A DNA stretch of 53,474 nucleotides from a virus (IMGVR_UViG_3300025131_010455:1-53474); one strand, 5' to 3'; positions 25,058 through 48,607 are shown, counted from the first letter of the stretch. Program-made: numbers and translations. The notes: a model not told the origin generated them from the sequence alone.

Positions 25058-25294
25058 TTATTCTGGTTGGGAGCCGACAACATCAAAATCTAAATTTTGT
25101 TGTAGATTCTCTTCCGTCTCCTCATTAAACTTTACCAACGGCGGATTCATAACAATCAATCCTTGTTCTGAAAGTCTAAATCTAAAATCCTGCAATACCG
25201 GCACGATATCACTTTGTTCCATTAAGCTCTTTTGAAGCGCCATCATAACGGAGCCCAAAGCTTGATCTGAAAAATACATGTCTTCTTTAATCAT
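25058..25294 (-). CDS. Conserved small protein of T4-like marine phages
   Basis: 78 residues. The sequence MYFSDQALGSVMMALQKSLM followed by EQSDIVPVL resembles a short protein that I associate with marine T4-like phages, usually left as hypothetical. It is soluble and acidic at the C terminus. It overlaps the end of the epimerase gene by 8 bases, linking the glycan block with the small-gene block. No function is assigned. Confidence 0.75.
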   Translation of the reverse strand: MIKEDMYFSDQALGSVMMALQKSLMEQSDIVPVLQDFRFRLSEQGLIVMNPPLVKFNEETEENLQQNLDFDVVGSQPE

Positions 25295-26165
25295 TTAATT
25301 CCTCCTTAAGTTTTTTAAAACATTCACTTATACCATCAAATATATTTATTTCTGGTTCCCAACCACATTCTTTTAATTTGAGCATGTTTGCTTTTGTATA
25401 TAGCACATCGCCTTTCCGGTCTTCCACGTAATTAAATTGCACATTGGGAAAATAATCCAGAACTATATTTTTTATCTCATTCAATGAAACGTTCGAACCG
25501 GTGCCCACATCTAGATGTTGACCATCAAATTTTCCTTCATATTTCATGGCAAATATATTAGCGGATACAACATCTTTTACATTTGCCATATCTCTCCGCT
25601 GACCACCATCGCCAGTGATAAATGGATTTTTGTCCTCTCTTATAAACTGCATAAAATTAGAAACTGCTGTAGCATATGGCCCGCTAGCTTGTTGATCTGG
25701 CGAATACACATTGAAATATCTCAAACTTACAGTGTCTAAGCCATATAATTTTGAATACAATTCACATTCCATTTCTGAAATTAACTTTTGTAATCCATAT
25801 GGGCTGTTAGGGCCATTTCCATCTCCAACAACAGACGAAGAGCCAGAATAAATAACTCTTTTTGCTCCAACTTTTCTAGCAAAATTTAAAACATATGTTG
25901 TGCATAACACATTATTTCTCATTGTTTGTGTGGGAAACTCAACACTGTATGCGACTCTGGGAATGCATGCTAAATGAAAAACATATTCTGGTTTGAAATC
26001 AAAATATGATTTATTAAACGGCTCCTTAAGACAATATAAAATGTCTTGAGTTGCGGCAGCTTCTTTAAAATCGATACCCATTACCTCATGACCCAGCTCT
26101 TGTAATTTTGCATACAAATGAGTTCCAATATATCCTTTATGCCCAGTCACTAAACATCTAGCCAT
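25287..26165 (-). CDS. NAD-dependent sugar epimerase/dehydratase (extended SDR)
   Basis: 292 residues. The Rossmann motif is GHKGYIG at the N terminus. The catalytic pair is YGLQK (Tyr near 122), preceded by the SGSSS strand, with RYFNVYSPDQQASGPYA and RRDMANVKDV typical of UDP-glucose 4-epimerase-like or GDP-mannose dehydratase-like enzymes. It probably converts a nucleotide-activated hexose for the glycan pathway. ATG 26165 has AAGGAG eight bases upstream and overlaps the previous stop by one base (TAATG). This is better supported than the longer frame to 26210. The exact substrate is not readable. Confidence 0.88.
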   Translation of the reverse strand: MARCLVTGHKGYIGTHLYAKLQELGHEVMGIDFKEAAATQDILYCLKEPFNKSYFDFKPEYVFHLACIPRVAYSVEFPTQTMRNNVLCTTYVLNFARKVGAKRVIYSGSSSVVGDGNGPNSPYGLQKLISEMECELYSKLYGLDTVSLRYFNVYSPDQQASGPYATAVSNFMQFIREDKNPFITGDGGQRRDMANVKDVVSANIFAMKYEGKFDGQHLDVGTGSNVSLNEIKNIVLDYFPNVQFNYVEDRKGDVLYTKANMLKLKECGWEPEINIFDGISECFKKLKEELND

Positions 26166-27013
26166 TATAATTTCTCCTTCTCGATGACGGCGCCTTTTAT
26201 AGTTTTCCAATCATATTCATTGCGCACTTCTAAATTCTTTTCCCATGCCGCTTTCATGACAGTGGGTTTAATCTCAATACTATCAAACAAGTGAATAAAT
26301 GCATTTAAATCTTTAGGAAAACATTTTCCGCCAAAACCTCTTTTCCCATCGTGCCCGGGGACATTTAAGTGTGAATTCCCAATTCTCCCATCAGAAGTAA
26401 ATCCACTCATTGCATCCTTCCAGTTTACTTCTAATCTTTCTGCAGCTTGCTTAAGTTCATTCATATAAGAAACTTTTACGGCAAAAAACGAATTAGCCAT
26501 ATATTTAATAAATTCTGCTGTTACAGCGCTGGTTTCTATTATTTTTGTATGAGGGAAGCGAACTCTAAAGAGAGTCTTCACTTTTTCTGTATTTTTCTTT
26601 TTTCCACCGAGCACGATTCTAGCAGCATTAATAAAATCTAATCGAGCTACACGCTCTGTCAAAAATTCTGGGCTGTGTATGATGTTTAAATTCGGGTGCT
26701 CGTTAATATATTTTTGCGTAGTTCCAGGTATAATGGTCGACTTTATGATAACAACGTTGTCCTCTCTCTTATTGACTCTTGATATGTCGTTAAATACTGA
26801 ATTCATTATAGAAAGAACAATTTCTCCTCCTTCGGCCAACTTCATTGGAGTTGGTACGCAGACAAATACAAAATCCGAATTAACTACGTCCGCAAATTTA
26901 TGCGTTGCTTTTCTTCCGTCTGTGTCATAAATCTTTATATCTGTGCACAAAGAAAATCCCGCAGCCACAGAAGAGCCGACAAATCCATTTCCAATAATTC
27001 CTACACTAAACAC
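26165..27013 (-). CDS. Short UDP-sugar 6-dehydrogenase-like protein (first copy)
   Basis: About 282 residues. It has an N-terminal Rossmann motif GIIGNGFVG, the VCVPTP strand, KSTIIPGT, SPEFLTE, the central helix AEFIKYMANSFFA and the catalytic-Cys motif GFGGKCFPKD (Cys near 229). These are the UDP-glucose/GDP-mannose dehydrogenase signatures. The usual enzymes are about 390-450 residues, and the C-terminal UDP-binding domain is absent here. It may act on a different substrate or pair with another subunit. GTG 27013 has GGAGG five bases upstream and overlaps the previous stop (TAGTG). An alternative ATG lies at 27025. Confidence 0.85.
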   Translation of the reverse strand: MFSVGIIGNGFVGSSVAAGFSLCTDIKIYDTDGRKATHKFADVVNSDFVFVCVPTPMKLAEGGEIVLSIMNSVFNDISRVNKREDNVVIIKSTIIPGTTQKYINEHPNLNIIHSPEFLTERVARLDFINAARIVLGGKKKNTEKVKTLFRVRFPHTKIIETSAVTAEFIKYMANSFFAVKVSYMNELKQAAERLEVNWKDAMSGFTSDGRIGNSHLNVPGHDGKRGFGGKCFPKDLNAFIHLFDSIEIKPTVMKAAWEKNLEVRNEYDWKTIKGAVIEKEKL

Positions 27014-27639
27014 TATATCCTCCATTCTTTGTATTCTGGGTCTTTTGTTTTATTGTTTTTATGCATTCTGTAGCGATAAAAAGGAATCCTTAAGTGATGA
27101 ATTTTATAAAACTCATCCAAACGTTTTCTTAATTCCTCCTCTTCACGATGACGCATGTTTGAATTATAACCACCCATTTGCAAAAGCAAATCTCTCCTAT
27201 ACATTATACCACATGAAATGTTATCTTTTTCTGCATATTTTCTCTCTATAATATTTTCATGCCGATCAACCAAAACATAATCACAAGACAAACAAAAGGC
27301 ATCATGATTCGCTTCTAAATATCGTTTCATTATATGGCACATGTCGGAACTAACATAGTCATCCGCATCAACGCGAATTACAAACTGTCCTTTGGCTGCT
27401 TTAATTCCTTTATTTGATGATTCTGCGACACCAACATTAGTTTTATTTTTAATAATTTTTATATCTTCTTTGTACGCACCAATCACCTCTAAAGAATGAT
27501 CTGAGCTGCAATCATCTACAATGATGACTTCGACATTGACATTTTTTTGTGCCAAGCAACTTCTTATGCATCGCGGTAAATAATCTGCATAATTATAATT
27601 TGTAATTATAATGCTCACATCTGGATATTTACTTTTCAT
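27013..27639 (-). CDS. Glycosyltransferase family 2
   Basis: 208 residues. Typical GT-A layout: VSIIITNYNYADYLPRCI, VIIVDDCSSD, NVGVAESSNKGI, and the metal-binding VDADDY. It then has the GGYNSNMRHREEEELRKRL acceptor-side segment. It transfers a sugar from a nucleotide donor to a growing glycan, presumably at the cytoplasmic face. There are no membrane segments. ATG 27639 overlaps the previous stop by 11 bases. The open frame extends to 27672, but that start would need a 44-base overlap. Confidence 0.88.
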   Translation of the reverse strand: MKSKYPDVSIIITNYNYADYLPRCIRSCLAQKNVNVEVIIVDDCSSDHSLEVIGAYKEDIKIIKNKTNVGVAESSNKGIKAAKGQFVIRVDADDYVSSDMCHIMKRYLEANHDAFCLSCDYVLVDRHENIIERKYAEKDNISCGIMYRRDLLLQMGGYNSNMRHREEEELRKRLDEFYKIHHLRIPFYRYRMHKNNKTKDPEYKEWRI

Positions 27640-28408
27640 ATAAAATCTTTTCTTTGGAAATATTTTTTGCATAATTAAAATCTAAAAATGAACTATTTTT
27701 AACGAAATATTCATTGTTATTATATATTTTTGCGAATTCTTTTCGCTGATCAGCTCTGTGAACTACTTCCATTTCAGACAATCTTAAATCATCTCCGTGC
27801 AATATCGAGTATTGCTGAGCGTCAACAGAGTCACAAGGATTAATCTCTCTTAAACCAGACAGCTTTAAGCGATGATATATATCATCATCATCGCCACCAT
27901 AGTGTCCAACGTTTTCATTAAAACCATTAATGACAAAATAATCATTTGAATGCACTAAAAAATTACCATAATTAATTTCTGGACTTAATCGCGACGGCAT
28001 TGAAGCTTTTGTATCTTGTATCCTGGTTGCAACGAATGATTCTTTTTCTTTCACCTTTTTAAACCAGTGATCAATGTATGTCATTCCCAAAAAAACATCC
28101 GCATCGCTAAAAACAAAAACAACATCTTTGCCCTTATAATAAGCTGCTCCTAAATTGCGTGCTTTTCTGGGATTGAACTTGAGGTCTTCTAATAGCTCAA
28201 CACACTTAATGTTATCTAAAAATGGTGAAAACGTGTCTTTTCGAAATTCAATCTCCTTCAATAGGAATTCTTGAAAATTATCATTCGAGTGAAAATCAAC
28301 AAGAACCAAATCATATGGTCGACCATATTGAGAAACCATAAAAGGAAAAGTCTTTAAAAAATGATTTAATCTATTTTTAATAGTAACAATTATTACACTT
28401 TTTTTCAT
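27629..28408 (-). CDS. Glycosyltransferase, GT2/GT27-like (galactosyltransferase C-terminal type)
   Basis: 259 residues. The N terminus SVIIVTIKNRLNHFLKTF and the strand LVLVDFHSND mark a GT-A fold. The DxD-like motif is FSDADVF near residue 100. The GFNENVGHYGGDDDDIYHRL segment near 165-185 is typical of the GT27-type C-terminal region that holds the catalytic acid. It begins with an ATGA overlap with the NeuB-like gene, so the two are probably translated together. The acceptor is unknown. Confidence 0.82.
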   Translation of the reverse strand: MKKSVIIVTIKNRLNHFLKTFPFMVSQYGRPYDLVLVDFHSNDNFQEFLLKEIEFRKDTFSPFLDNIKCVELLEDLKFNPRKARNLGAAYYKGKDVVFVFSDADVFLGMTYIDHWFKKVKEKESFVATRIQDTKASMPSRLSPEINYGNFLVHSNDYFVINGFNENVGHYGGDDDDIYHRLKLSGLREINPCDSVDAQQYSILHGDDLRLSEMEVVHRADQRKEFAKIYNNNEYFVKNSSFLDFNYAKNISKEKILYEK

Positions 28409-29103
28409 CTTTTTTTCTCACAAAAATTACGCAACTCACACAATTCTTCATAATTCATTGAACATATATGCGCGCTTTCTGTATCGCACTGTAAAGAATG
28501 ATCTATAGTAAAATGTTTTTCTATAATCTGTGCGCCTCTTTTAACTGCCTCTTTGCTAGCTTCAATTCCAATTGTATGATCGCTGTATCCGACCAAACGC
28601 CCGCTGAAATTTTCAGGCATTAATTCAAGTGCCTCTTCGGCGGTATGAGGATATTTGGAAACGCAATGAAAATATTTTACATTGTTTTCACAAAAGGGAA
28701 GATATTCTTTTTCCCAATTTCCTAAAGAGCAATATGTTAACAAACCTTTACCTATCATCTTCTTGCAAAATCCAAACTGGTCCCGAACAAGAGAACTAGC
28801 TATTTTATTTATTTTAACGTCAGATTTTAAAATCCACTCAAATCTATCTTCATGAAAAGCAGAAGCAAAAAAATCTATATTTAAACTTTCTGAAAACTTT
28901 TTAAGACGAAGGAATTGTTCTTCTGTCATAGAAAGATATTCCCAACGTTCTCTATTCTCTCCAGGCATTTGATACGTGTCGTATAACTGCACTTTAACTG
29001 CATTAGCACCGGCCATCTTAGATTGCAAGATCATTTGTTCCGCTCTTTCTACAGAACCTCCCCACTGGCCACAAAGTTCGCTAATTATATAAATCTTACT
29101 CAT
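28405..29103 (-). CDS. neuB: Nonulosonic (sialic) acid synthase-like protein, NeuB family, without SAF domain
   Basis: 232 residues. The NeuB signatures are present: AGANAVKVQLYDTYQM (family form AGADAxKFQ), VGYSDHTIGIEAS and QIIEKHFTID. These define the TIM barrel that condenses phosphoenolpyruvate with an N-acyl hexosamine. Standard NeuB/PseI/LegI proteins are about 340 residues with a C-terminal antifreeze-like SAF domain, which is missing here because the frame ends at an intact stop coupled to the next gene. It overlaps the FkbM-type gene by 8 bases and lies two genes from a cytidylyltransferase, the expected partner. Which nonulosonic acid is made cannot be read. Confidence 0.82.
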   Translation of the reverse strand: MSKIYIISELCGQWGGSVERAEQMILQSKMAGANAVKVQLYDTYQMPGENRERWEYLSMTEEQFLRLKKFSESLNIDFFASAFHEDRFEWILKSDVKINKIASSLVRDQFGFCKKMIGKGLLTYCSLGNWEKEYLPFCENNVKYFHCVSKYPHTAEEALELMPENFSGRLVGYSDHTIGIEASKEAVKRGAQIIEKHFTIDHSLQCDTESAHICSMNYEELCELRNFCEKKR

Positions 29104-29806
29104 TACTATTTTTTTCCATTATAACTTCGCCCATCGGGCCCCAATCAGTATAATCCGAAACAGTCGATTTAAATCTATCAATAACTTCTTGACTAAAGTT
29201 TTCTGGCGCTTTGATCTTGGGAGTAAACTCAACAAGCCACTCATCAATATATTTGTACGCACCAGTTTTCAATAAATGATCAATAACTTTATATTCTGCG
29301 CCTTCAATATCAATTTTCAAAACATTATGATTTTCTTTATTTAGGTTTTTAAAAATCCAGTCGGACAAATTTAAACATTGAACCGGATCGCGGAAGCTGC
29401 CGGCAGTGAAATCTTGAAGTACAACCACTCCTTGGGCCGAGCGCTCAACAAGAGTGTGCTCGGCGCCGGAAAACGCTAAACCAACTGGCTTACCCTTGTA
29501 AAAATATGGCACAAATTGCCCCTTCTTAATTGTTTGTTCTTTGTTGGGACAGAGAGATGAGCCGGTTCTGGTGCCCCAAGCTTGAATCCAAAAATCTTTT
29601 ATTTCATTTTTTACCCAAACAGCTTGTGCATAAACCGTTAAATCAAGTGAATCGTTTTTAGAAAACTTTTTCAATATATGTGAATAATTTAAATATTCTG
29701 GTTCAAAGGCGTCTATTTTTATTAATCTTTCTTTATATTTTTCTATTGCCCAATCTATTGCGTTGCCAATATTTGCGCCACAATCTATGAAATGTACTTT
29801 TTTCAC
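29096..29806 (-). CDS. FkbM-family methyltransferase
   Basis: 236 residues. The N-terminal motif VHFIDCGANIGNAIDWA is SAM-binding motif I, and VLKIDIEGAEYKVIDHLLKTG is the FkbM-type motif. It would O-methylate a sugar or glycan. It lies between the NeuB-like and cytidylyltransferase genes with overlaps of 8 and 4 bases, so it may act on the nonulosonic acid product or the sugar next to it. The assignment to FkbM is by motif and is quite safe. The acceptor is inferred only from context. Confidence 0.85.
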   Translation of the reverse strand: MKKVHFIDCGANIGNAIDWAIEKYKERLIKIDAFEPEYLNYSHILKKFSKNDSLDLTVYAQAVWVKNEIKDFWIQAWGTRTGSSLCPNKEQTIKKGQFVPYFYKGKPVGLAFSGAEHTLVERSAQGVVVLQDFTAGSFRDPVQCLNLSDWIFKNLNKENHNVLKIDIEGAEYKVIDHLLKTGAYKYIDEWLVEFTPKIKAPENFSQEVIDRFKSTVSDYTDWGPMGEVIMEKNSNE

Positions 29807-30348
29807 TTTTCTAAATACCTCACATCTTCTATTGTGTGCACATCGTGTAAATCACAAACAACGACACCGCAGTTTGTACTCAAGTCCTCTTGAAAAACAT
29901 AGTCACCTTTAAAAATACGAAAAGCGGCATTTTGCATTAAGTTGTTATCAACACTAAAAACTTCATCTCTTTCATGCTTAAGAAACGTGTCAATGGCTTC
30001 ATCCAAATGATTTCCTTTAACTTCAGGAGAATTTGCTTGAAGCGAAATAAACACATCAACCTTCAATTCCTCGACTATGTGTTGTGCAGCAGATCTAATT
30101 ACAGCTTGTTTGTATGTTTTTGAATCCGACAACTCCGGATCTCTTCTGTGTATTTTCGCTCCAAAGCTTTTAGCAATCTCTTCGATTTCACCATCTTCCG
30201 TACTTACCCAAGGTTCAATGTTATATCTTGATTCCTTACAAGCTTTAATGGCCCAATATAACATAGGTTTTCCCCAAACGGGATAAATGTTTTTTCTTGG
30301 AAGTCTTCTAGAGTTTCCCCTTGCTGGTATTATCGCTATAACTTTCAC
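29803..30348 (-). CDS. CMP-nonulosonate cytidylyltransferase-like (NeuA family), short
   Basis: 181 residues. It starts IAIIPARGNSRRLPRKNI, the CTP-binding signature of CMP-sialate and CMP-KDO synthetases, followed by GKPMLYWAI, and then RDPELSD, which is also typical. FISLQANSPEV resembles the family LQPTSP motif. It would activate a keto sugar acid as its CMP derivative, the step after NeuB. Family members are usually 220-235 residues, so the C-terminal part is short. The start is GTG at 30348, joined to the previous gene by a GTGA overlap. An alternative substrate such as KDO is possible. Confidence 0.82.
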   Translation of the reverse strand: MKVIAIIPARGNSRRLPRKNIYPVWGKPMLYWAIKACKESRYNIEPWVSTEDGEIEEIAKSFGAKIHRRDPELSDSKTYKQAVIRSAAQHIVEELKVDVFISLQANSPEVKGNHLDEAIDTFLKHERDEVFSVDNNLMQNAAFRIFKGDYVFQEDLSTNCGVVVCDLHDVHTIEDVRYLEK

Positions 30349-31352
30349 TTTTGTTCTAAATAATCTAAAATTCTTTTTGAAGAGTTACCAGTAAATAAAT
30401 GATTTTCAATTGATTTATTAAAAGAATCGTCTAAATCTGTTTTTAACAAAAAATTTGCTGCATCTTCAATTTTATTACTAACAAAATTGTTGCTCATCTC
30501 TATGCAGTAGTCATAATTATAAAGGATATCCAATGGCCTTTTAAATGGTTTAATATGAAAATTTATAAGAGGCCTTTTTAGCAAAACACATTCTTTGATT
30601 GCAGTGGAACTAAAATTAATTATTAAATCAGATACATGCATCAACTCCATTGAATCATGAGGATACCAAGAAAAATCTACAAAATGGTGGTCTCCACAGA
30701 TATAAGCACGTCTATCATAGATATCCTTTCCTCGTGTTTTTGTGACAATATCTAAACCCATATTCCGTAGAGATTCATAGATTTTTACAATGGTCTTCGA
30801 GGGCCCGCCGGCAGATACAGCCATATTATGAATATCTCTGGCTCTCGGAAGAATAACAAATGCTTTTCTTTTATTTAAATTAAGATTATATTTTTTACAT
30901 ATTTCTTCATTATTAAACGATACATCGTATTTGGGAGAACCTAAATAAAGATTTTTTTGTGAAACTACCTGATGATATTCAGCCATAAATTGGCTTGGAA
31001 GAATTACATGATCTACCATATCCACATATCTACCATGGTGACTGGTAAAATCAGTCATATAGGTTAAAGAATATTTTTTGCCTTTGAACCCAGACAACAA
31101 ATTAGATCGCACTCCTTCTATTAAAAAGAATGGCATTCCATTGTCTTCCAACTTTGATATATCTCTAAGTTCGAAATCATATTTTTTAGAAAGATTATTT
31201 AAACTTTCTTGATGCTTATGTGGAGAATTATACTTACCAGTTCTACCAACAAAAAAAATAGATTTTATGCCTCTTTTGTTACCTTCAATAACCAAAGGAA
31301 TAAAATATCTTAGAAAAGTCATTTCACATACAATAAAGTTTATTTGTGTCAT
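30345..31352 (-). CDS. GT-B glycosyl/glycerophosphotransferase-like protein
   Basis: 335 residues from ATG 31352. The C-terminal half shows the GT-B pattern of the CDP-glycerol glycerophosphotransferase/TagB and capsular polysaccharide transferase type: AFVILPRARD, DIVTKTRGKD, FSWYPHDSMELMHVSDLIIN, then FSSTAIKECVLLKRPLINF. The N-terminal half has alternating strands and helices without membrane segments. Sitting directly before the CMP-sugar synthetase gene, it could transfer the CMP-activated sugar, but this is inference. The open frame extends to 31430. I preferred 31352 because it lies after the preceding gene's stop. Confidence 0.65.
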   Translation of the reverse strand: MTQINFIVCEMTFLRYFIPLVIEGNKRGIKSIFFVGRTGKYNSPHKHQESLNNLSKKYDFELRDISKLEDNGMPFFLIEGVRSNLLSGFKGKKYSLTYMTDFTSHHGRYVDMVDHVILPSQFMAEYHQVVSQKNLYLGSPKYDVSFNNEEICKKYNLNLNKRKAFVILPRARDIHNMAVSAGGPSKTIVKIYESLRNMGLDIVTKTRGKDIYDRRAYICGDHHFVDFSWYPHDSMELMHVSDLIINFSSTAIKECVLLKRPLINFHIKPFKRPLDILYNYDYCIEMSNNFVSNKIEDAANFLLKTDLDDSFNKSIENHLFTGNSSKRILDYLEQK

Positions 31353-31362
31353 ATTGTTTCGT

Positions 31363-31722
31363 TCAATTTCCTCTATACGCGCGCAGCACTTTAATTTGGT
31401 CTTCTGCATTAAACTCAAAAACATCCACAACTAAAAGTTCTTCTTCATCTAATGATAAAACCATTTCACAAACGAGAATGCCACCAATATCTTCATGAAT
31501 ATGAGATATATTAATTTCAATATTATCTATGGAATTAAAAATTTCTGAAAAAAGGTTAATAACGTTTTGTTTGCCAACTATTGTTCCAACATTCCAGTCT
31601 GTTAACGTACAATCCGCTGAAAATAAAATAGATATGCTATCAATATCTTTGTTTTCAAAAAAATCTAAATAATCTTCAATAACTTGTGATCTAATCACGT
31701 TATTGATTACTAAATCTGCCAT
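31363..31722 (-). CDS. SnoaL/NTF2-like small protein
   Basis: 119 residues with the layout of the NTF2/SnoaL cone fold: an N-terminal helix IEDYLDFFENKDIDSISILF, the Asp-containing TLTDWNVGTIVGKQNVINLF, and C-terminal strands FEFNAEDQIKVLRAYRG. Members act as isomerases, hydratases or cyclases, or as binding proteins. In this setting a role in modifying a sugar intermediate is possible but unsupported. An AAGGAG site precedes ATG 31722. A 44-base gap separates it from the radical SAM gene. Confidence 0.7.
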   Translation of the reverse strand: MADLVINNVIRSQVIEDYLDFFENKDIDSISILFSADCTLTDWNVGTIVGKQNVINLFSEIFNSIDNIEINISHIHEDIGGILVCEMVLSLDEEELLVVDVFEFNAEDQIKVLRAYRGN

Positions 31723-34873: not shown

Positions 34874-35319
34874 TGTTGCCTTTTGCTTTTGTAATTATAA
34901 GTAGTAATATAATCACTACATATGCCTGTGCAATAATTTAGATTTTCATCAAATCCATTTTCTGGTAAAACACATATTGAACTTTTGGTCAATTTTTTCT
35001 TTGGAAAAGTCCATATAAAACCACGAGATGTTAATGTTGCATCATCATTGTCATGAAAAAAACAATGAACTTCATTATCCAATAAAAACTCAAGCGCTTC
35101 TATATTTTTACAATGACACCAAAAATGTTCATTCTTTAAATAATCAAGTTCTATTTGATACTGGGGCTCGTCATGGCCAAGATATAATTTATTGTTGATA
35201 TACCAGACATCAACTTCTACATCATAACCTTTAGAAATAGCATTATTTAAATATTTTGGATTATTTTCCAAATCTAGCTGTGGTCCGGATATGTTTCCTC
35301 TGTGAGCTATTAAAAACAC
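34870..35319 (-). CDS. Short glycerophosphodiester phosphodiesterase-like protein
   Basis: 149 residues. The N terminus FLIAHRGN, then ENNPKYL, EVDVWYINNKLYLGHDEP reproduce the GDPD active-site order (His-Arg-Gly, Glu, Glu-x-Asp, Gly-His-Asp). Full GDPD enzymes are about 240 residues, so the barrel is incomplete or very compact. Small proteins of this kind appear in sugar-phosphate and capsule clusters. The start is GTG 35319, overlapping the preceding stop as TAGTG. Whether it is a hydrolase of a phosphodiester-linked sugar is inference. Confidence 0.7.
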   Translation of the reverse strand: MFLIAHRGNISGPQLDLENNPKYLNNAISKGYDVEVDVWYINNKLYLGHDEPQYQIELDYLKNEHFWCHCKNIEALEFLLDNEVHCFFHDNDDATLTSRGFIWTFPKKKLTKSSICVLPENGFDENLNYCTGICSDYITTYNYKSKRQQ

Positions 35320-40203: not shown

Positions 40204-41129
40204 TTGTTACCCTCTCTAATGGTTTTTGTAAACAAATCTACATATTCATCAACTAATATGTTCATGTCATACGTTTTAACGTTATTATAACAAATCTCTA
40301 CGTCGTTGTTAACTGGAATATAAAACTCTTTTGGCATGTCGACTATACAATTCTTATTTAATATAGCAGTTGCCATCCCAACATCTCTAGATACAATTGG
40401 TATCTGCATAGCAGAAGCTTCCAAAATTGCTTGTGGGCCACCTTCAACTCTAGAGGCAACAATATAAAGATCACAGCATGCATACATGTCCCTTAATGTC
40501 TCTGTCGGCGCCATTTCTATAAAATGAAAATTAATTTTTTCTTCTTTAAGTCGCTTAATAACATACTGGCGGCGCCAACCTCCAAGTAAAACAAACAAGT
40601 TTTGTTTGTCAATCTTTTTAATCGTTTCAACAAAAAGATCGGGCCCTTTACACAACTTGGGGCTAGCCAAGTCGGAGCCTTCAGTATCTCTCTGAAAACT
40701 TCCCACAACATACGCATCAGAGGGGATATTAAATTTTTTTCTAGTTTTTAGTTTGTCAGCCGGCTGCCATATGCTTGAATTGTACCAATACCCAATCACA
40801 TCTATTGGCTTCGTTGTCAATTGAGAAATGAATTCTTTAGTCTTTTGACAAGGAGTGTGGTATTGATCAACGAACCGATCTCTCTCTTTAAAATCTCGCA
40901 ATGAAGCTTCTGTAAATTTTTCAGGGACTATATGATGAATTGTCATAACCACTTTTTTTTCAACAAGAAGCTTAACCGGCACGTGCCTCCATAACCATGG
41001 ACTAATTATCCACAATAAATCTGCCTCTGTCGGATTATCTGTATGGTATTCAGGTTTTAAACTCTTCCATTCTTTGATAATTCTGTCGAGAATCCAATTT
41101 TCTCTTGGTGCTAGTGAAAAAACCTTCAT
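40200..41129 (-). CDS. Glycosyltransferase family 4-like (GT-B)
   Basis: 309 residues. The donor domain has VGSFQRDTEGSD, NLFVLLGGWRRQYV and the ending YIVASRVEGGPQAILEASAM, a typical retaining GT4 E-x7-E pattern. The N-terminal half is variable, with TIHHIVPEKFTEASL. It lacks membrane segments. It starts at ATG 41129, one base before the stop of the next upstream methyltransferase gene, and ends with an ATGA overlap into the dehydrogenase gene. Confidence 0.87.
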   Translation of the reverse strand: MKVFSLAPRENWILDRIIKEWKSLKPEYHTDNPTEADLLWIISPWLWRHVPVKLLVEKKVVMTIHHIVPEKFTEASLRDFKERDRFVDQYHTPCQKTKEFISQLTTKPIDVIGYWYNSSIWQPADKLKTRKKFNIPSDAYVVGSFQRDTEGSDLASPKLCKGPDLFVETIKKIDKQNLFVLLGGWRRQYVIKRLKEEKINFHFIEMAPTETLRDMYACCDLYIVASRVEGGPQAILEASAMQIPIVSRDVGMATAILNKNCIVDMPKEFYIPVNNDVEICYNNVKTYDMNILVDEYVDLFTKTIREGNK

Positions 41130-41130
41130 A

Positions 41131-41940
41131 TCAATACTTTAATTGCCACAATCTAGTTCCAGCAGGGTCTTGTTCAGGAGGCATGCCACCAATTAAATCA
41201 AAATTAAATTTTATAATTTCATAATATTGTTCCCTTTCGAGCGCTGCGGAGAGTAAATCACATCCAAGTTCCTCATTTGGATCGTGTTCGTGCTTGATAA
41301 AGTTTTCAACTAGCACCCCTTTAGAATTCATTTGCTTCATTAAATTAGCTAATACTCTCATGGGACTTGGAATATGCTCAAGTACTTCAAAAATTATTGC
41401 AATATCAATTTTTTTATCATATATTGGAAGTGTATTTGGTTTAACTGGTTTTACATATATGTTAACATTCTCTAGTTCTCTACTTTCTTTTAACTTGTTC
41501 AAGCGCCAATTTCCAAAAATCAAATGTTCGCAGCCATCAACATCCGTTAGCGATATATCCACATTAACATCTTGCTTTACCATATTGCAAAGCGAAAAAG
41601 AAAAAGGCGCTACCCCGCACCCATACTCGCAAATATGTATATCATCCTTTATGAACGGTTTCAAAATAGAAAGATGTAAATTTACAAGATCTTGATGCCT
41701 CACACACTGTCTAAATACACTCCATGCACCTTGAGCGATATAAAAATCAAATATATCTTTTTCTGTTTTACGCTCTTTTAGCGCCCAAATATCTTCCATT
41801 GTCATATTGGATACCGGTTCACAAGTTTTTGATCCTGGTAATGAAGGTTTTCTTCCATCTGCGCGTGTACCTAATTTAATTGCTTCTTCCTCAGAAACAT
41901 TATAATATTCGCATAAGTAATTTAACCATTCAAATTGCAT
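41131..41940 (-). CDS. Class I SAM-dependent methyltransferase
   Basis: 269 residues. Motif I is ICEYGCGVAPFSFSL (near residue 100), an acidic residue follows at SLTDVDGCE, and the post-motif DIAIIFEVLEHIPSPMRVL (EVLEH) is typical of glycan and small-molecule O-methyltransferases. The N-terminal 80 residues are an additional helical region with NVSEEEAIKLGTRADGRKPS. The acceptor is probably a hydroxyl on the glycan, inferred from context. Well-separated start with no overlap. Confidence 0.85.
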   Translation of the reverse strand: MQFEWLNYLCEYYNVSEEEAIKLGTRADGRKPSLPGSKTCEPVSNMTMEDIWALKERKTEKDIFDFYIAQGAWSVFRQCVRHQDLVNLHLSILKPFIKDDIHICEYGCGVAPFSFSLCNMVKQDVNVDISLTDVDGCEHLIFGNWRLNKLKESRELENVNIYVKPVKPNTLPIYDKKIDIAIIFEVLEHIPSPMRVLANLMKQMNSKGVLVENFIKHEHDPNEELGCDLLSAALEREQYYEIIKFNFDLIGGMPPEQDPAGTRLWQLKY

Positions 41941-41961: not shown

Positions 41962-42834
41962 TTATTTTTGAAATGTAAACAATGTTGTACATGTTTTTTC
42001 ACCTACCGTGCCGTCATAAAAAATCCCGGCATCCGGGCGCACGTGCCACACAGGTAAATAATTTAAAAAATAATCAAATCCAAAAGATTTCACCATGTGG
42101 TGAATGCCATGTTTATAAAAATCTTCTTCAAGTAACATATGTTTTTCTTCTTCTGTAACAAACGAACACTTTTCAGGAAAAGAGACACCAGTGCGCGCCT
42201 TATAATTCCCAGGATATATCGAAACATCGAAACAAGGCAAAAGAGTATAACCGGAAATATTTCTGTATGTGGTAATTCGAATCTGTGTTGTCGTATATAA
42301 ACCACTGCGATTATGCAAGGACGCATAGCATTTTTCTGTGCGCACGTGCGTGGATTCAACGTCAGTCGGCTCTGGTGTAAGCTGGCACCAACTAATAAAA
42401 CAATCTTGCTCATAAGAAATGTTTATATACCTGAGCGCATTACGTACAGCTACAGGAAATTGGCTAAGATATTGTATTGGTGGCAATAAAAAATCAACAA
42501 TTACTTTTCCATTGTTTTCAATTGTCTTTTTCAAATTTCTTAAAAAATGATTTTTATCCTTTACAAACACTGTCGTTCTGAAGCAAATAACCAAATCGTA
42601 ATCAGAAATATCCCAATCTTCGTTTATCTCCCAATATTGTGCACCTAAATCAGTTTGAATGTCATATAAATCACTTTTTTCTAAATTGGGACATTTCGTA
42701 ATAACATTTTCTATGAATATATTTGCACTTTGCCAACCCAACCATGCAATGCTTCTAACATTTTTTAAATCAACATTGTCTTGCACATAGGGCGTATATA
42801 AATTTTTCGAAAGTTCATAATCTGAATTGCCCAT
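41962..42834 (-). CDS. Divergent methyltransferase-like protein
   Basis: 290 residues. The N-terminal 150 residues show a class I-like layout: SIAWLGWQSANIFIENV in place of motif I, DLYDIQTDLGAQYWEINEDW, YDLVICFRTTVFV and GKVIVDFLLPP. The Gly-rich loop of a normal SAM site is absent. The C-terminal 140 residues, rich in Tyr, Trp and His, are unlike anything I can name. It shares its central pattern with the 201-residue protein at 36255-36860, so the two may be one small family. Confidence 0.65.
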   Translation of the reverse strand: MGNSDYELSKNLYTPYVQDNVDLKNVRSIAWLGWQSANIFIENVITKCPNLEKSDLYDIQTDLGAQYWEINEDWDISDYDLVICFRTTVFVKDKNHFLRNLKKTIENNGKVIVDFLLPPIQYLSQFPVAVRNALRYINISYEQDCFISWCQLTPEPTDVESTHVRTEKCYASLHNRSGLYTTTQIRITTYRNISGYTLLPCFDVSIYPGNYKARTGVSFPEKCSFVTEEEKHMLLEEDFYKHGIHHMVKSFGFDYFLNYLPVWHVRPDAGIFYDGTVGEKTCTTLFTFQK

Positions 42835-42837
42835 AAC

Positions 42838-43794
42838 CTATATTACTCCGCTAATTTCATTCATAAATCTTTTTGCATATTCTTCATGAGTATATTGAGA
42901 GGCGTATTTTAATCCTTCTTTAACTTTCTTAAGTCTTTCTTCGTCGTTTTTGAGATAAAAACTTAATTTATCTATAATGTGATCATCCGACATTGACATA
43001 TCTATTTCAATTAAAAATTTAGAAAAGTCTTCTTGCTGCTCTCCCGGCATGTCGGCAGCAATTGCTGTTCCGCACATAGGGATTTCTATATATTTTCCAA
43101 ATCTAGACTTGGGTGCACCGCTGCATGTTATACAAATTTTTGCTGAATTTATGGCTTTAGCAAACTCAATTGCATATTTGCCTGTATGAGCGTCGTAATG
43201 AACGCCTCCAGGGTGTGGATATATTCCACACTCATATTTACCATTTATTTTTCTTAATATGTCAACCATTCTTGCGCGCAGCGGATAATGACTTCCCAAT
43301 AGTGATTTATAATATATCGAACCCACAAGAAGCAAATCAATTTGCTTTTTCAATCCATAGTCTTTAAAAACTGTTTGTTCTGCGCTGTGAGGGACGTTTA
43401 TAAATTTAATATCGCTGTCTTTGTATATTTCCTCATATTGTCTCATATCGTTTAAATGATGACATAGTACGATGTCGGCGCCACTTTCATCTATTTCTTT
43501 CCTTGTCCACTTAATATCGTACATTTCATTGTAACGAATACACTTTGTTTGCTTTACCTTGGAAAACTCATTTAACTCTAACGGCTTATAAGCTATTACT
43601 ACATCTGGTTTTTCTTTGCCTGCATATAAAATATCAATATTATCTTGGACTGTTAAACTGTTGTCATAGTTTTCCCAATTTGTTCCAGACCATTTTAATT
43701 CACAAATCTTACCAATGGCTTCTATAGAATGGTACCGGACTCTCGACATCTTCGTAACATACGAATTTTTATCACAAAGAAATAAAACTTTCAC
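42838..43794 (-). CDS. Glycosyltransferase, CgeB/GT-B-like
   Basis: 318 residues. It has an N-terminal VLFLCDKNSYVTKMSRVRYH, then DVVIAYKPLEL, NVPHSAEQTVFKDYG, and DLLLVGSIYYKSLLGSHYPLR, followed by RFGKYIEIPMCGTAIAADMPG. This order is typical of CgeB-like glycosyltransferases (donor domain with a Gly-Thr loop and a conserved Glu). It starts at GTG 43794 with a GTGA overlap with the upstream methyltransferase gene. Its acceptor is unknown. Confidence 0.78.
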   Translation of the reverse strand: MKVLFLCDKNSYVTKMSRVRYHSIEAIGKICELKWSGTNWENYDNSLTVQDNIDILYAGKEKPDVVIAYKPLELNEFSKVKQTKCIRYNEMYDIKWTRKEIDESGADIVLCHHLNDMRQYEEIYKDSDIKFINVPHSAEQTVFKDYGLKKQIDLLLVGSIYYKSLLGSHYPLRARMVDILRKINGKYECGIYPHPGGVHYDAHTGKYAIEFAKAINSAKICITCSGAPKSRFGKYIEIPMCGTAIAADMPGEQQEDFSKFLIEIDMSMSDDHIIDKLSFYLKNDEERLKKVKEGLKYASQYTHEEYAKRFMNEISGVI

Positions 43795-44531
43795 AGAGAT
43801 CTTCTTTCAATTAAAACCTGCCCATAGTCAATATCCTCATCCGGAATTCTACGATCATCAAAAAATATTCTCCTATCCATGATAATAAGCTCTTTATCAA
43901 AATCATCTATTTCATCAATTGCTTTGGCACATTCAATATCTTTTTGTTTTTTCGTTGGAAGATGATAATCATCAAAAAGAAGAAACTTATTAAACTTGCC
44001 TTTAGTGTTTAGCCAATCACATTTTGTAGCTTTATACGTATGGTCGCCATCAATATAAATAAGATCAAATTTCTCATTTAATGATGGTAAAATAGATTGA
44101 GAATAACCTGATAGGTATTGAATTTCATTTGTAAAAAACCATTCTCTTGGAAAAGTATCTTTTAATCTATCTAGATGCTGCTTCGTGTTTTTATCACTAA
44201 ACAATGGATCAATTGTGATAATTTTTCCTCCACCATTTTCTTGTAGGGCCATGGCCGCACAAAAAGTACCGTATCCTCTTCCAAAGCCAATTTCTAAAAA
44301 TGACGTAAGATTATATTTTTTAATCAAACTATAAATAAGCAATCCTCTTTCATAGTTTGGGCGAAAAAAACATCCAACAGATTTATAAAGTGTGCTGTCT
44401 GGAGATCTAGTTTTTTTCGCAGTATATTCACCAATTTGATCAAAGTTGCCCAAATTAAGCTCTTCAAGCGGCATGCCAATTTCTTTGAGTTTTTCTCTAA
44501 TATTAATTTGTCTCATTTTTTTACTACACAT
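43791..44531 (-). CDS. Class I methyltransferase (Methyltransf_24 type)
   Basis: 246 residues. SAM motif I is FLEIGFGRGYGTFCAAMAL, with IITIDPLFSD and DLIYIDGDHTYKATKCDW as the following acidic motifs. This IDGDHTY form is common in enzymes of rhamnosyl and capsular glycan methylation. LLFDDYHLP near the C-terminal third holds a probable metal site. ATG 44531 overlaps the stop of the upstream glycosyltransferase (TAATG), and the gene ends in the GTGA overlap with the CgeB-like gene. Confidence 0.85.
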   Translation of the reverse strand: MCSKKMRQINIREKLKEIGMPLEELNLGNFDQIGEYTAKKTRSPDSTLYKSVGCFFRPNYERGLLIYSLIKKYNLTSFLEIGFGRGYGTFCAAMALQENGGGKIITIDPLFSDKNTKQHLDRLKDTFPREWFFTNEIQYLSGYSQSILPSLNEKFDLIYIDGDHTYKATKCDWLNTKGKFNKFLLFDDYHLPTKKQKDIECAKAIDEIDDFDKELIIMDRRIFFDDRRIPDEDIDYGQVLIERRSL

Positions 44532-45256
44532 TACAAATATTTCCTTTTAAGCTTTTCATATAAAGAATCGGGATGAAAGTTTAAACTTTTATCTACGTTT
44601 GATCTTCGCCACATTTCATTCCACAAGTGAATTCCATAAATTCCTTCATCTTCAAAATCAAACTTATATTCTGGATTGATTAACAAAAACCACTCACACC
44701 CAGCAATTGGACAAAAAGTCTTATATGATTTAACAAACTGCTGAAGATTAAATTTTTCTACCGTTGATTTAACCAACCTGGGACCAATCTCGCCCCAAAC
44801 CAGATTTTCTCTATCTTTAGACATGCACACATCAAAAGCATGCTGTATTGCCGGGCTTCTTTTTGGTGCCTTAATTATGCCGGCATTAATATGTGTATTA
44901 TTTTGTCGGAGAGGTAAAACCTCTTCAGAAGAAAACACGAAAGGAGTATCAAAATCAAACTTTTTTAAACAAACCATGTCGGCGTCAATCCAATATCCGC
45001 CTTTTTCTAAAACTAATTTATATCTAAAATAATTTGAAAACCCTGAAAAGCTTTTATGGTCTTTGTACAAGAAGATCATATCTTCAGGTAATATCTCATT
45101 CCCATCTTTTACAACCACACCATCAGGTATACCTTTAACGTCAGAATAAACATACAAGTGTACGTCATGACCGTGATATACAAAGGAAGACAAGCACAGT
45201 CTTTCCATTGGAGACAGATCATCACCTATCCACAAAGTTTGAATAATGTCACTCAC
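44531..45256 (-). CDS. GT32-type glycosyltransferase
   Basis: 241 residues from the chosen start. It opens MSDIIQTLWIGDDLSPMERL, the usual GT32 N terminus. The DxD region is FRYKLVLEKGGYWIDADMVC, and the C terminus has GIYGIHLWNEMW, also typical of the family (alpha-mannosyl and galactosyl transferases). GTG 45256 has TGGAG about eight bases upstream and overlaps the preceding stop by 8 bases. An upstream GTG at 45289 would give a longer, less typical N terminus. Confidence 0.85.
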   Translation of the reverse strand: MSDIIQTLWIGDDLSPMERLCLSSFVYHGHDVHLYVYSDVKGIPDGVVVKDGNEILPEDMIFLYKDHKSFSGFSNYFRYKLVLEKGGYWIDADMVCLKKFDFDTPFVFSSEEVLPLRQNNTHINAGIIKAPKRSPAIQHAFDVCMSKDRENLVWGEIGPRLVKSTVEKFNLQQFVKSYKTFCPIAGCEWFLLINPEYKFDFEDEGIYGIHLWNEMWRRSNVDKSLNFHPDSLYEKLKRKYL

Positions 45257-47348
45257 TAAAGTGGCTCCAGAATCTTTGTGGAACTTCACGCAAATAAGAA
45301 TCTATTTTATTTAAATCATCAGTATTAAACCATTCTTCTTCAGTGTGTTGCACATTTTCGTTTAAATGTAGCTCACAACCAAGAAGTTTAGCTTCAATAA
45401 CTAATCTAGGGCATGTATCTGCACCGGCCGGCGTAAAACACAAACCTTTAGCTCCAGCTAGCATTGATAAAGCCTCATCGTGAGTCTTATTTTCCAAAAC
45501 TGCAAAATCCAAATTATTTTCTTTACACCACTGCTGCGCAGTTTTAGATCCTTTAACCCAATTATCTGTACCTAGAGCAACCCAGACATTATTTTTATTG
45601 TCTTTATTTCCCTCTCTCAACTTTTTCATTTTGTCTAGTTTTTCTTCATTGAACACAGAAGAAAGAACAATACACTTATTAGCATCCAAATTCGGTAGTT
45701 CTTTTAAATGGATGTCTCTTTGTTTTTCAGACATAAAAAATATATTTTTGGCACCGCTTAAAAATTTATCAATACTTTTTCCATGAGTATGCTTGGCGCA
45801 CGTACATTCTTCGCTCTCTAAAAGCTTATGTAAATCTAAATTTCTATATCTGCAAAATTTATAATCAAATTCAACCACGGAATAATCAACACCGTTTTCA
45901 GCAAATAGATTTAACAAGTTAAAATCGGCAGTGCTATAATTGCCAAAAATCCATTTTTTGCCGGCATGAGTAGTTAATATCTCTTTAGACAAACTTCTTG
46001 AATTTATATTGACACTCTTGCTTGCACATTCATCAATAAGATTCTGCAAGCTTAGCTCGGCGCCACCGACACCTGTTCCAGTTCCTATTTCCTCAGAAAA
46101 CATATCGCTCACAAAAATATAATCAAAATTTTCTATTACCACCTCACCAAACGCAGAATTTAAAAATTTCTCATATTGTTGCTCTGGGGTGAAATTTTCT
46201 AGTATATGGTTTTGCAATTGTTTTGCAGCTTTTTTGTACCTTCCATGTTCTTTGTATATTTCGCAAAGCTTCATTTTGTAACTTCCTTGTTTCGGATAAC
46301 ACCACATCGAGTCTGCCAACAAAACGCCATCCCAAACAACTTCTTTCTGTATAGGGCCTAGGTCATAATCAACTTTAGCATATGCTGCACGATTTCTAAT
46401 TTTTCCTTTTTTATTTTTGACTGGCATGTATAGAAAATCTACATGTCCGCTCCAATCTGGTGCAATAACTGGCATACCACAATAAGCTGCCTCAAATAAT
46501 GGTAAACCAAAACCCTCGCCATGAGCTAGAGATACAAAAGCATTAATTTTTTGATGGTGATAGAGGCTATAAATTTCTTGATCTGTCATGTCTCCATGCA
46601 ATAAATAAACTTTACATTTTCTTTGTGGATATCTTGCAAGAAGCTCACTAATTTGTGTGTAGCCTGCACGGCGGTCTATTATAGAATTATTTCTACCAAA
46701 AATTTTAAGTACCAATCCAACATTTTGATCTATAAATTCTTCAACAAACCAATTAATAGTATTAACCAAGTTTTTTCTTGGGCCCCACTGAGCCATGACC
46801 AAGAAATTAAAATCAGGCTCAAAGTCAATATCCAAATCAACTACATCATGTTTTCTAACCGGGTAATGTACAACATGCACAGGCGTTTCACATTTAAGAA
46901 CCATTTCTTGATTTGTATCTTTGTGTGTGCCTTTATAAACAGTGTTTATGAAACCTTTTTTGGAATGCTCTGATATCGTAATTACTCTATCCATCATATT
47001 GGCGCGCTCTAGCCAAATGGGCGCAATTCTTGTTGTTTCTATTCCGGCTGTAACTCCAATATTAACCGGCGCTAAGCGTTCCCACTCATTTGGTATTGTA
47101 ACTTGAAATGATATATCATACGTACCATTTCTTTGTTCGTGTTCTATGGTTTTTACCAGTAAGGAGTCCATCCATTTTCTTTCTTCATCATCGTCCTTAA
47201 GCCAGCCGGTTTCTCCCCAGTTGGTGGTGTGAAGATATATATCAAATTGTTCTTGACGACTTCGAAGCGACCTAAGCACAAATCTAGTATGTTCTCCATA
47301 GCCACTTCTCGTTAAAGCTGGACCACGTATTAAAACTTTTTTAATCAT
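45249..47348 (-). CDS. Large two-module glycosyltransferase (GT4 plus second GT-B-like half)
   Basis: 699 residues. Residues 1-400 form a GT4-like enzyme: VLIRGPALTRSGYGEHTRFV, FNFLVMAQWGPRKNLVNTI, VYLLHGDMTD, and FVSLAHGEGFGLPLFEAAYC with its E-x7-E. Residues of about 410-690 look like a second GT-B module: IFVSDMFSEEIGTGTGVGGA, CIVLSSVFNEEKLDKM, then KGLCFTPAGADTCPRLVIEA. The second acceptor-side loop has Gly-rich VGGAELSL. A processive or bifunctional enzyme adding two sugars is suggested. ATG 47348 overlaps the preceding stop (ATGA). Confidence 0.85.
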   Translation of the reverse strand: MIKKVLIRGPALTRSGYGEHTRFVLRSLRSRQEQFDIYLHTTNWGETGWLKDDDEERKWMDSLLVKTIEHEQRNGTYDISFQVTIPNEWERLAPVNIGVTAGIETTRIAPIWLERANMMDRVITISEHSKKGFINTVYKGTHKDTNQEMVLKCETPVHVVHYPVRKHDVVDLDIDFEPDFNFLVMAQWGPRKNLVNTINWFVEEFIDQNVGLVLKIFGRNNSIIDRRAGYTQISELLARYPQRKCKVYLLHGDMTDQEIYSLYHHQKINAFVSLAHGEGFGLPLFEAAYCGMPVIAPDWSGHVDFLYMPVKNKKGKIRNRAAYAKVDYDLGPIQKEVVWDGVLLADSMWCYPKQGSYKMKLCEIYKEHGRYKKAAKQLQNHILENFTPEQQYEKFLNSAFGEVVIENFDYIFVSDMFSEEIGTGTGVGGAELSLQNLIDECASKSVNINSRSLSKEILTTHAGKKWIFGNYSTADFNLLNLFAENGVDYSVVEFDYKFCRYRNLDLHKLLESEECTCAKHTHGKSIDKFLSGAKNIFFMSEKQRDIHLKELPNLDANKCIVLSSVFNEEKLDKMKKLREGNKDNKNNVWVALGTDNWVKGSKTAQQWCKENNLDFAVLENKTHDEALSMLAGAKGLCFTPAGADTCPRLVIEAKLLGCELHLNENVQHTEEEWFNTDDLNKIDSYLREVPQRFWSHFSE

Positions 47349-48607
47349 ATCACTTCCTTGCATTCCCAGGATTTATAATTTTTTCTGTTTTTCCACGAAC
47401 CATGTTTTTCTATTATCATCGTAAACACTTCATCCCATTGTTTACCATATTTTTCAAAATTATAATTGGTCATGACATGATTTCTTCCCATTTTTCCTAA
47501 TTTTGTTAACTCTTCTTTGGACATATTATAAATTTTTAACAAGGCGTTAACAACAACTTCTTGAGACAGCCTATCCTCGCGAATATATGGAATAGTTTGA
47601 GAGCCGATTACCGCTTTGGAGGTTGGTTCGATTCCAACACCAAACCAACTCTCACCATCTGTTACTTGTTCCTGCAAACCTCCTGTCATATTAACTATAA
47701 TAGGTGTTTCACAAGCTAACGATTCTAACGTTGCTAATCCAAAACCCTCTGCATCTGAGATATTAATTGTGCAATCAGCCATATTATACATTAAAGCTAA
47801 CGTTTTTTGATCAACCTTTTGTGTGGAAAAATATACTTGGCCATTTGTCAGATTTAAATACTCTATTATTTTTTTCAAATCTTGTCCATGTTCGTCATTC
47901 ACGTCCGTATGCATAACAAGAGACGCATTTTCATGGCCAACAATATCTAAAAACTCTTTAAACCAAAAAATCAACGAACCGCTTTGTTTTCTTCTAGCGT
48001 TTCTGTTATTCCAAAAGAAAATTTTCTTATTTTTATCAAAATTCTTTCCGAAACCCTTCTTGGAGAATTCTTCTATAGGTTCACGTGAATACTTTTTAAA
48101 AACATTTGTATCTACGGAATGTGGCACATAAACAGATTCCACGCCGGGAGCAACAGTTTTTACAATATCATCTGTAACTTTGGATATCGTGGCGACCAAA
48201 TCATTAGATTCGTATGCCGATTTATTAAAATCCGGATATGGATAATTATCCCACACATGATAATAAACCATTGGCACCTGTGGCCTGATTTCATGCTCCA
48301 TTAGCCATAGCCACTCCCAGAATCTTGGATCTGTCATAAACCACAATATATCAGGTCGATGATTTCGAATTAAAGATCGTATTATTTCCTGGTTTCCGTA
48401 TCCGTCAACTGGAAACACTATCCAATCATCTCCCCATTCTTGAGTTCGAATAGGTTTGTATTCTTTGTGTTTGATTGCACCACCCAAACTAATAAATTTA
48501 TATTTACCAGTTCGGAGCATCGCTTCAATCATATATTTTGTTTGGCCGGCTACGCCAGAAGGTGAAAAAGGTACATCACTTATTGTTAAAATTGTTCTTT
48601 TTTTCAC
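47345..48607 (-). CDS. Glycosyltransferase family 4
   Basis: 420 residues. N terminus RTILTISDVPFSPSGVAGQT with KYMIEAML, a typical Gly-rich GT4 opening. The donor domain has KKIFFWNNRNARRKQSGSLI, ASLVMHTDVND, and NISDAEGFGLATLESLACET with the E-x7-E pattern. The segment LWFMTDPRFWEWLW near residue 90 is an unusual aromatic stretch. The start is GTG 48607 with a GGGG site five bases upstream. It is the first gene of the glycan block in the direction of transcription, 19 bases after the nuclease gene. Confidence 0.88.
   Translation of the reverse strand: MKKRTILTISDVPFSPSGVAGQTKYMIEAMLRTGKYKFISLGGAIKHKEYKPIRTQEWGDDWIVFPVDGYGNQEIIRSLIRNHRPDILWFMTDPRFWEWLWLMEHEIRPQVPMVYYHVWDNYPYPDFNKSAYESNDLVATISKVTDDIVKTVAPGVESVYVPHSVDTNVFKKYSREPIEEFSKKGFGKNFDKNKKIFFWNNRNARRKQSGSLIFWFKEFLDIVGHENASLVMHTDVNDEHGQDLKKIIEYLNLTNGQVYFSTQKVDQKTLALMYNMADCTINISDAEGFGLATLESLACETPIIVNMTGGLQEQVTDGESWFGVGIEPTSKAVIGSQTIPYIREDRLSQEVVVNALLKIYNMSKEELTKLGKMGRNHVMTNYNFEKYGKQWDEVFTMIIEKHGSWKNRKNYKSWECKEVI

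Follow-up and report, generated by a model that had tools for sequence, protein, structure and literature searches.

A fixed-position, serotype-like glycan island in a lineage of T4-like marine phages

Why should a T4-like phage carry, between its late sigma factor gene and phoH, a long run of genes for the synthesis and modification of sugars? We addressed this question in the viral sequence IMGVR_UViG_3300025131_010455, a linear IMG/VR record of 53,474 bases that is probably a fragment and that is referred to here as the window. A preliminary description had placed 26 consecutive minus-strand genes, mostly joined by stop-start overlaps, at 25287-48607, and open reading frame (ORF) calls bore this out: the block contains 26 ORFs, is 99.6% coding, and 20 of its 25 gene junctions overlap, the remaining gaps being 1–44 nt. 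A Pfam profile search, which that description had proposed as a check, confirmed the near-total sugar-nucleotide, glycosyltransferase and methyltransferase content and matched the listed set of NeuB/NeuA-like, Ugd-like, SDR, deacetylase and radical SAM enzymes with at least eight transferases. Eight glycosyltransferase-type proteins scored over the Pfam cut-off and a ninth below it; three clear methyltransferases (FkbM type among them), two SDR epimerases/dehydratases, two UDP-glucose/GDP-mannose dehydrogenases, NeuB and a CMP-sugar cytidylyltransferase were recognized by Pfam and NCBIfam, and a HAD/nucleotidyltransferase fusion, a B12 radical SAM enzyme and a DUF2334 polysaccharide-deacetylase-like protein by Pfam. 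No Pfam match reached the cut-off for four block proteins, of 149, 304, 201 and 290 aa. As the comparison with related genomes described below shows, a lineage of T4-like marine phages infecting bacteria carries, at one constant site, a glycan island that varies in the manner of a serotype locus, and the block is its form in the window.

Relatives were collected with a PhoH search, which gave 31 contigs, and a radical SAM search, which gave one more; a nucleotide search with the structural flank and a search with the 671-aa structural protein gave none. A sigma-factor search located the second anchor in 15 contigs, which included three near-duplicate pairs and thus represented 12 distinct relatives. 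The same block, which the preliminary description had suggested looking for in related phages, was recovered in all 12 as an island of 15–25 kb with 12–24 intact interior sugar genes, and the phoH-sigma distance was 15.7–24.4 kb in relatives with both anchors and 26.3 kb in the window. The gene order in 12 of 12 was nuclease, glycosyltransferase GT1, the N-terminal domain of glycosyltransferase GT2, a variable interior and the sigma factor, with a 78-aa protein and a zinc ribbon in most cases between the last two, the contig of G032 beginning past the nuclease and leaving that position uncovered. Pooled Pfam matches of 206 interior proteins of the relatives comprised epimerases, aminotransferases, NeuB, glycosyltransferases, methyltransferases and similar enzymes. 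The generalization that such genes are usually few in T4-like phages is therefore untrue in this lineage, in which every contig reaching the locus has an island.

The anchors in the window, on the minus strand like all features below unless stated otherwise, are PhoH with an N-terminal PIN domain upstream (50860-52248; PF02562, E 7e-50; 55–77% identity in relatives), a PD-(D/E)XK (RecB/Cas4-type) nuclease (48627-49517; PF12705, E 4e-19; 44–65%) and, downstream, the 78-aa conserved protein (25058-25294; 40–81%), an FmdB-like zinc ribbon (24811-25086; phrog_1076 and PF09723, both weak; 32–47%), a 98-aa protein with an N-terminal hydrophobic segment that is conserved in relatives (24514-24810) and the gp55-like late sigma factor (23824-24510; phrog_234; 54–65% in all relatives). 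Pfam and PHROG profiles identified both flanks as T4-like (gp6-type wedge, gp25, gp55-like sigma and PhoH). The assignment to T4-like myoviruses rests on gp25, wedge and sigma factor in the window and on the gp23-type capsid protein (PF07068) in relatives, which lies outside the fragmentary window and was found in the long contigs of G010 (190 kb) and G023 (165 kb). The closest capsids belong to Flavobacterium, Microcystis and Rhodothermus phages and to uncultured huge phages.

Conserved flanking genes around a replaceable interior are a trait of Wzx/Wzy O-antigen or capsule loci, and the interior turned over extensively. Clustering of 243 interior proteins from 13 islands at 35% identity gave 169 families, 120 of them confined to a single genome, the widest present in seven and none in all. 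Pairs with 75–84% identical anchors had mostly 0–2 interior genes in common (counted at 30% identity or more), and G023-G032 (82% over three anchors) and G010-G012 (78%) had zero; the exception was G005-G010 (anchors 76%), with seven. Among distant pairs, G023-G028 (anchors 55%) had nine interior genes in common, four of them at 68–78%, and G011-G020 (59%) had ten. Since near pairs share few genes and distant pairs may share more, sharing does not track the backbone. Nor is the turnover mere overall divergence, because the other genes keep far more orthologues: 44 of 72 against 1 of 16 interior genes in G012 versus G010 (p=5e-5), and 17 of 22 against 3 of 19 in G032 versus G023 (p=1e-4), the effect being weaker in G020 versus G010 (p=0.07). 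Shared interior genes were often grouped as cassettes, and cassettes that are more alike than the backbone (68–78% versus 55% for the flanks in G023-G028) indicate exchange between phages. The block had been described as one assembled pathway; this holds only in part, the interior being a mosaic with most genes private to one genome.

Other variable regions also occur in the relatives' genomes, and one of them in G010 (~90–110 kb in the phoH-forward orientation) has no orthologues in three other members. Genome scanning for a donor of the radical SAM gene turned up only contig L135 and a distant Planctomycetota gene. In L135 (NZDU01000001.1; 8.7 kb, binned in a Candidatus Pacearchaeota metagenome-assembled genome) the radical SAM gene (81%) adjoins a SnoaL gene (62%) at 601-2696, surrounded by overlapping glycan-type genes, and this is probably a mis-binned contig of another phage glycan locus.

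The constant head of the island consists of two transferases. GT1 (47345-48607), a GT4/GT-B glycosyltransferase (PF00534), is 56–71% identical in all relatives and keeps the GT4 catalytic motif EGFG...E. GT2 (45249-47363), also assigned to GT4 by Pfam, is conserved over its N-terminal ~410 aa (46–62% in relatives), and its variable C-terminal part corresponds in most relatives to a separate gene or to an unrelated one. We propose that GT1 is the first, acceptor-proximal transferase and GT2 the second. The GT1 model adopted a GT-B fold with a predicted local distance difference test (pLDDT) score of 87, and its first match in PDB was a chlorovirus glycosyltransferase (3oy2, 17% identity); chloroviruses glycosylate their own capsid. 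Rhodothermus phage RM378 carries GT1 and a weakly matching GT2 with a ribonucleotide reductase gene next to them and no island, which suggests that the pair works alone on a fixed acceptor; the pair is probably older than the island.

We then considered by which route the glycan would be assembled. The Wzx flippase profile PF01943 matched 0 of 19 contigs (the control was found in 13 of 14 genomes) and was also absent from phages P-SSM2, S-SSM7, immuto and Mel-JY01. A hydropathy scan of 245 interior proteins found 229 without a hydrophobic segment and one with two, the latter being an APS kinase with DUF2061; the scan revealed neither a Wzx/Wzy-locus polymerase nor a membrane-bound initiating transferase, and the membrane components of serotype-converting gtr systems (GtrA flippase, GtrB and Gtr) were likewise missing, with practically no multi-pass membrane protein in the islands. 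The reported lack of Wzx and Wzy in the block thus extends to the lineage. Having no flippase and almost no membrane protein, the islands point to a cytoplasmic, soluble route, and, as in virus-encoded virion glycosylation, the soluble cytoplasmic glycosyltransferase set is encoded by the phage itself. Lipid-linked assembly and export would depend entirely on the host, and cytoplasmic assembly resembling flagellin O-glycosylation (PMC7591256) would be simpler. The preliminary description had favoured a short protein-linked or virion-linked glycan or reliance on host export; the soluble, cytoplasmic, protein-linked route is supported. Three acceptors are possible: the virion, the host surface and DNA, the last of which had not been considered before.

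A perfect sigma-70 consensus promoter (TTGACA-N16-TATAAT, 12 of 12 positions) lies at 50828-50855, 4 nt past the phoH stop. At the corresponding position G005, G006 and G011 carry a perfect site, and G010, G012, G020 and G025 one with a single mismatch; none was found there in G023, G028 and G029, which are more distant. Generic promoter and terminator scans were at chance level overall, and this was their sole conserved site; perfect sigma-70 sites numbered two in the window against 0.12 expected, the second lying inside phoH (51056-51084). We propose the post-phoH site as the promoter of a nuclease-glycan transcription unit, and the whole 26-kb unit would presumably be read from it, and early.

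The explanation that fits best, and that we hold to be somewhat better than evenly supported, is phage-encoded glycosylation of a virion protein with conserved proximal and exchangeable outer sugars. In such a scheme, host RNA polymerase would transcribe the nuclease-glycan unit early, and the interior enzymes would synthesize unusual nucleotide sugars there, within the cytoplasm. Soluble GT1 and GT2 would attach the first sugars to an acceptor common to all these phages, and the variable transferases and methyltransferases would extend and cap the glycan. The acceptor would most likely be a capsid, tail or fibre protein, giving virions an exchangeable sugar coat, which cassette swapping would alter while the acceptor enzymes stay unchanged. 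A virion protein is preferred because of the soluble route, the constant head with a variable body, and the analogy with mycobacteriophages and giant viruses. The fixed-site island with content particular to each virus, like the swapping of capsule types, suggests that these phages probably coat themselves with changeable sugars. Whether this amounts to lineage-wide virion glycotypes, in which the two conserved transferases set the inner sugars and cassette recombination swaps the outer ones as in a capsule serotype locus, we regard as evenly balanced.

A host-surface acceptor is the strongest of the alternatives and in our judgement an unlikely one. The island would then feed or rebuild a host polysaccharide during infection through the host's lipid carrier, flippase and ligase, for example to keep competing phages or newly released progeny from adsorbing. 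This is the usual interpretation of cyanophage and pelagimyophage sugar genes (PMC3037559, PMC7029224), and it agrees with the early-type promoter and with the surface-sugar-type enzymes throughout the islands. However, no island encodes a flippase, polymerase, lipid-carrier transferase or membrane Gtr-type protein, and the host machinery would have to fit a different glycan for each phage, yet the conserved enzymes are phage-encoded soluble transferases.

Attachment of the glycan to phage bases, as hypermodified DNA shielded from host nucleases, appears more doubtful still. The early-type promoter and the nucleic-acid neighbours (PhoH and nuclease here, polymerase and ribonucleotide reductase in RM378) would suit it, diverse phage DNA glycans are known (Pyle 2024, as cited in PMC12619734), and diversification would fit an arms race. 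Against it, of the enzymes that ready pyrimidines for sugar attachment, as in T4-type DNA glucosylation, neither PF00303 (thymidylate synthase/dCMP-hydroxymethylase) nor PF00145 (cytosine C5-methyltransferase) was found in 14 lineage contigs, which may be incomplete but include those of 190 kb and 165 kb; a PF12851 (Tet/JBP) profile search gave no match, its positive control being silent too.

Selection on the interior genes bears on a further alternative. G028 and G030 share 97.9% identity across 28 kb, and their interior genes differ by 175.5 synonymous and 45.5 non-synonymous changes over 5877 codons, a ratio of non-synonymous to synonymous rates (dN/dS) of 0.065 with zero broken frames, compared to 0.160 in the flanks. 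The interior genes are thus under strong purifying selection, and a pseudogene reading, named in the preliminary description as what would overturn it, was rejected on the same figures. Synonymous divergence was uneven among the genes of this pair, as recombination would cause. One interior gene of the pair (L069:2043-2942), which has no Pfam match, carries 15.5 non-synonymous against 1.5 synonymous differences between nearly unchanged neighbours, a pattern of either diversifying selection or a recombined patch. That the island is stuffer, neutral or hitch-hiking host DNA filling the phage head, was raised as a possibility for the cyanophage lipopolysaccharide (LPS) clusters (PMC3037559) and would account for its highly variable content, but is very improbable: the dN/dS of 0.065 without a broken frame argues that these genes are not stuffer, the catalytic motifs are intact, the island is present in every relative, and codon usage fits the phage (r 0.96 between the block and the rest). 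Least credible is a join of phage ends to a bacterial polysaccharide locus during assembly, the other outcome named as fatal: although the contig is metagenomic and no second near-identical assembly covers its left junction, this chimera was rejected because T4-like phage genes lie on both sides of the block, because block and rest agree in GC (33.8 versus 35.9%), in GC at third codon positions (0.26 in both) and in codon usage, because two other contigs, L001 and L002, span the right junction and are 99.9% identical to the window between phoH and ~42360 and, most decisively, because 12 relatives keep the same arrangement.

Several points count against glycosylation of a virion protein or temper its support. 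Nothing links GT1 or GT2 to a structural protein, and the 3oy2 match is weak, because GT4 is a large fold class (471 significant matches). The late-promoter motif TATAAATA was not enriched in the window (4 found versus 9 expected), and none was conserved upstream of GT1. The early-type promoter after phoH would also suit DNA modification, as would the position of the RM378 pair, which has a DNA polymerase-like gene on one side and ribonucleotide reductase on the other. Selection is known from the one pair G028/G030.

Within the island, GT2 is followed by a glycosyltransferase with a DXD sugar-binding region (44531-45289; PF04488 over cut-off), a methyltransferase (43791-44531; PF13578, E 2e-15), a glycosyltransferase (42838-43794; PF13524), a weak methyltransferase-like protein (41962-42834; PF05219 below cut-off), a methyltransferase (41131-41940; PF13847) and a GT4-type glycosyltransferase (40200-41129; PF13692, E 2e-13). 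A short-form UDP-sugar 6-dehydrogenase (39403-40203; PF00984/PF03721; 55% to G028) has the catalytic Cys motif GFGGPCLPKD and precedes an SDR nucleotide-sugar epimerase/dehydratase (38450-39406; PF01370, E 6e-56), a second GT4-type glycosyltransferase (37533-38474; PF13692), the DUF2334 polysaccharide-deacetylase-like protein (36860-37546; PF10096, E 1e-13) and a protein that is methyltransferase-like by eye only (36255-36860; no profile match). The 304-aa product of 35319-36233 (no Pfam; phrog_13607) recurs in other islands and is a putative GT-A-like glycosyltransferase, its low-confidence model (pLDDT 60) matching GT6 (GT-A) enzymes at E 1e-4. Beyond it lie a small protein of a phage family (34870-35319; phrog_34507, E 5e-27; 65% in G032, 49% in G029), the fusion of a HAD phosphatase/mutase and a sugar-phosphate nucleotidyltransferase (33503-34873; PF13419, PF00483), split into two genes in G032, and the B12-binding radical SAM enzyme (31767-33503; PF04055, PF02310; 73% in G032), to which a SnoaL/NTF2-like protein (31363-31722; PF12680) is linked in three loci, G032 and L135 included.

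The remaining interior genes encode a weak glycerophosphotransferase/GT-B-like protein (30345-31430; PF04464/PF04007 below cut-off), a short CMP-nonulosonate (PseF/NeuA-like) cytidylyltransferase (29803-30348; PF02348, E 2e-20; best NCBIfam match PseF, below cut-off), the FkbM-type methyltransferase (29096-29806; PF05050), a NeuB/PseI-type nonulosonate synthase barrel without the C-terminal SAF domain (28405-29103; PF03102, E 7e-29; GYSDH and EKHFT intact), a glycosyltransferase of the GT2/GT7 C-terminal type (27629-28408; PF02709, PF00535), a GT2-family glycosyltransferase (27013-27672; PF00535, E 9e-32), a second short-form UDP-sugar 6-dehydrogenase (26165-27025; PF00984/PF03721; motif GFGGKCFPKD) and, last, an SDR nucleotide-sugar epimerase/dehydratase (25287-26210; PF01370, E 2e-43) whose family occurs in six genomes. 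NeuB, the cytidylyltransferase and both UDP-sugar dehydrogenases are shorter than their bacterial relatives and keep their catalytic motifs.

Outside the island, the first gene past the promoter encodes a 98-aa protein (50517-50813; ORF call), followed by a zincin-type metallopeptidase-like protein (49820-50665; motif HEIAHAVEE; Pfam weak, below cut-off; 32–60% in relatives), an HExxH protein that is conserved between phoH and the nuclease in relatives. Beside phoH, 52303-53094 on the plus strand is the window's only sizeable gene on that strand; it is 27–42% conserved in relatives, and inspection by eye makes its product a trypsin-like serine protease, either secreted or a lipoprotein (AAHVC, DIDVC, PGSSGS). 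Two giant genes of the structural region, at 1-8913 (2971 aa or more, including a weak lectin/LamG-like domain) and 12929-19174 (2081 aa), encode adhesin candidates and possible glycan acceptors.

How does the island compare with known systems? Flavobacterium phage immuto and Microcystis phage Mel-JY01, which also have the capsid proteins nearest to this lineage, likewise encode a PD-(D/E)XK nuclease and GT1 and GT2 homologues followed by other sugar genes, but their loci are shorter (~11 kb and ~6 kb), lie away from phoH and are ~30–37% identical. No swapped island is known to us from mycobacteriophages. Their phage-encoded glycosyltransferases place glycans on capsid and tail-tube proteins (Freeman 2023, as cited in PMC12619734), so that, unlike here, the acceptor is known, and papers citing that work point to few glycosyltransferase genes. 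Megavirinae clusters (PMC10117803) resemble the island in having 6–33 virus-encoded sugar genes between conserved genes, clade-specific content and rare bacterial-type sugars; these are, however, eukaryotic giant viruses whose fibril glycan was shown chemically, whereas the glycan here is predicted from genes.

Large sugar clusters in T4-like phages are already known (PMC3037559, PMC7029224), and those of marine T4-like phages were described as LPS genes without known function, perhaps stuffer DNA (PMC3037559). The LPS clusters of cyanophages P-SSM2, S-SSM7 and S-SM2 (PMC3037559) are, as here, co-directed runs of epimerase, glycosyltransferase and methyltransferase genes in a T4-like genome, but they occur in a few exceptional genomes rather than a whole lineage, and the main runs lie close to hli03, that of P-SSM2 (15 genes, 193428-205500) lying 42 kb from phoH; a smaller P-SSM2 sugar cluster near phoH has been reported (PMC3037559). 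A tblastn search with GT1 matched no Synechococcus or Prochlorococcus phage. The pelagimyophage host-recognition cluster (PMC7029224) is also hypervariable, glycosyltransferase-rich and marine T4-like, with radical SAM cassettes, but is centred on tail fibres, has scattered sugar genes and is described as diverging gradually instead of being completely replaced. A literature check, which lacked most subscription journals, found no description of an island that occupies one site throughout a lineage, varies like a serotype locus, keeps a conserved pair of transferases and has been measured to be under purifying selection.

With a universal, selected locus of constant head and variable body, and a cultured relative, immuto, that shares the head of the locus, the function of such clusters is now testable. 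Were the virion to carry the glycan, these phages would wear exchangeable coats, which would bear on adsorption, on host range, on how animal immune systems recognize phages and on how phages are typed; the islands would in addition hold a large stock of new sugar enzymes.

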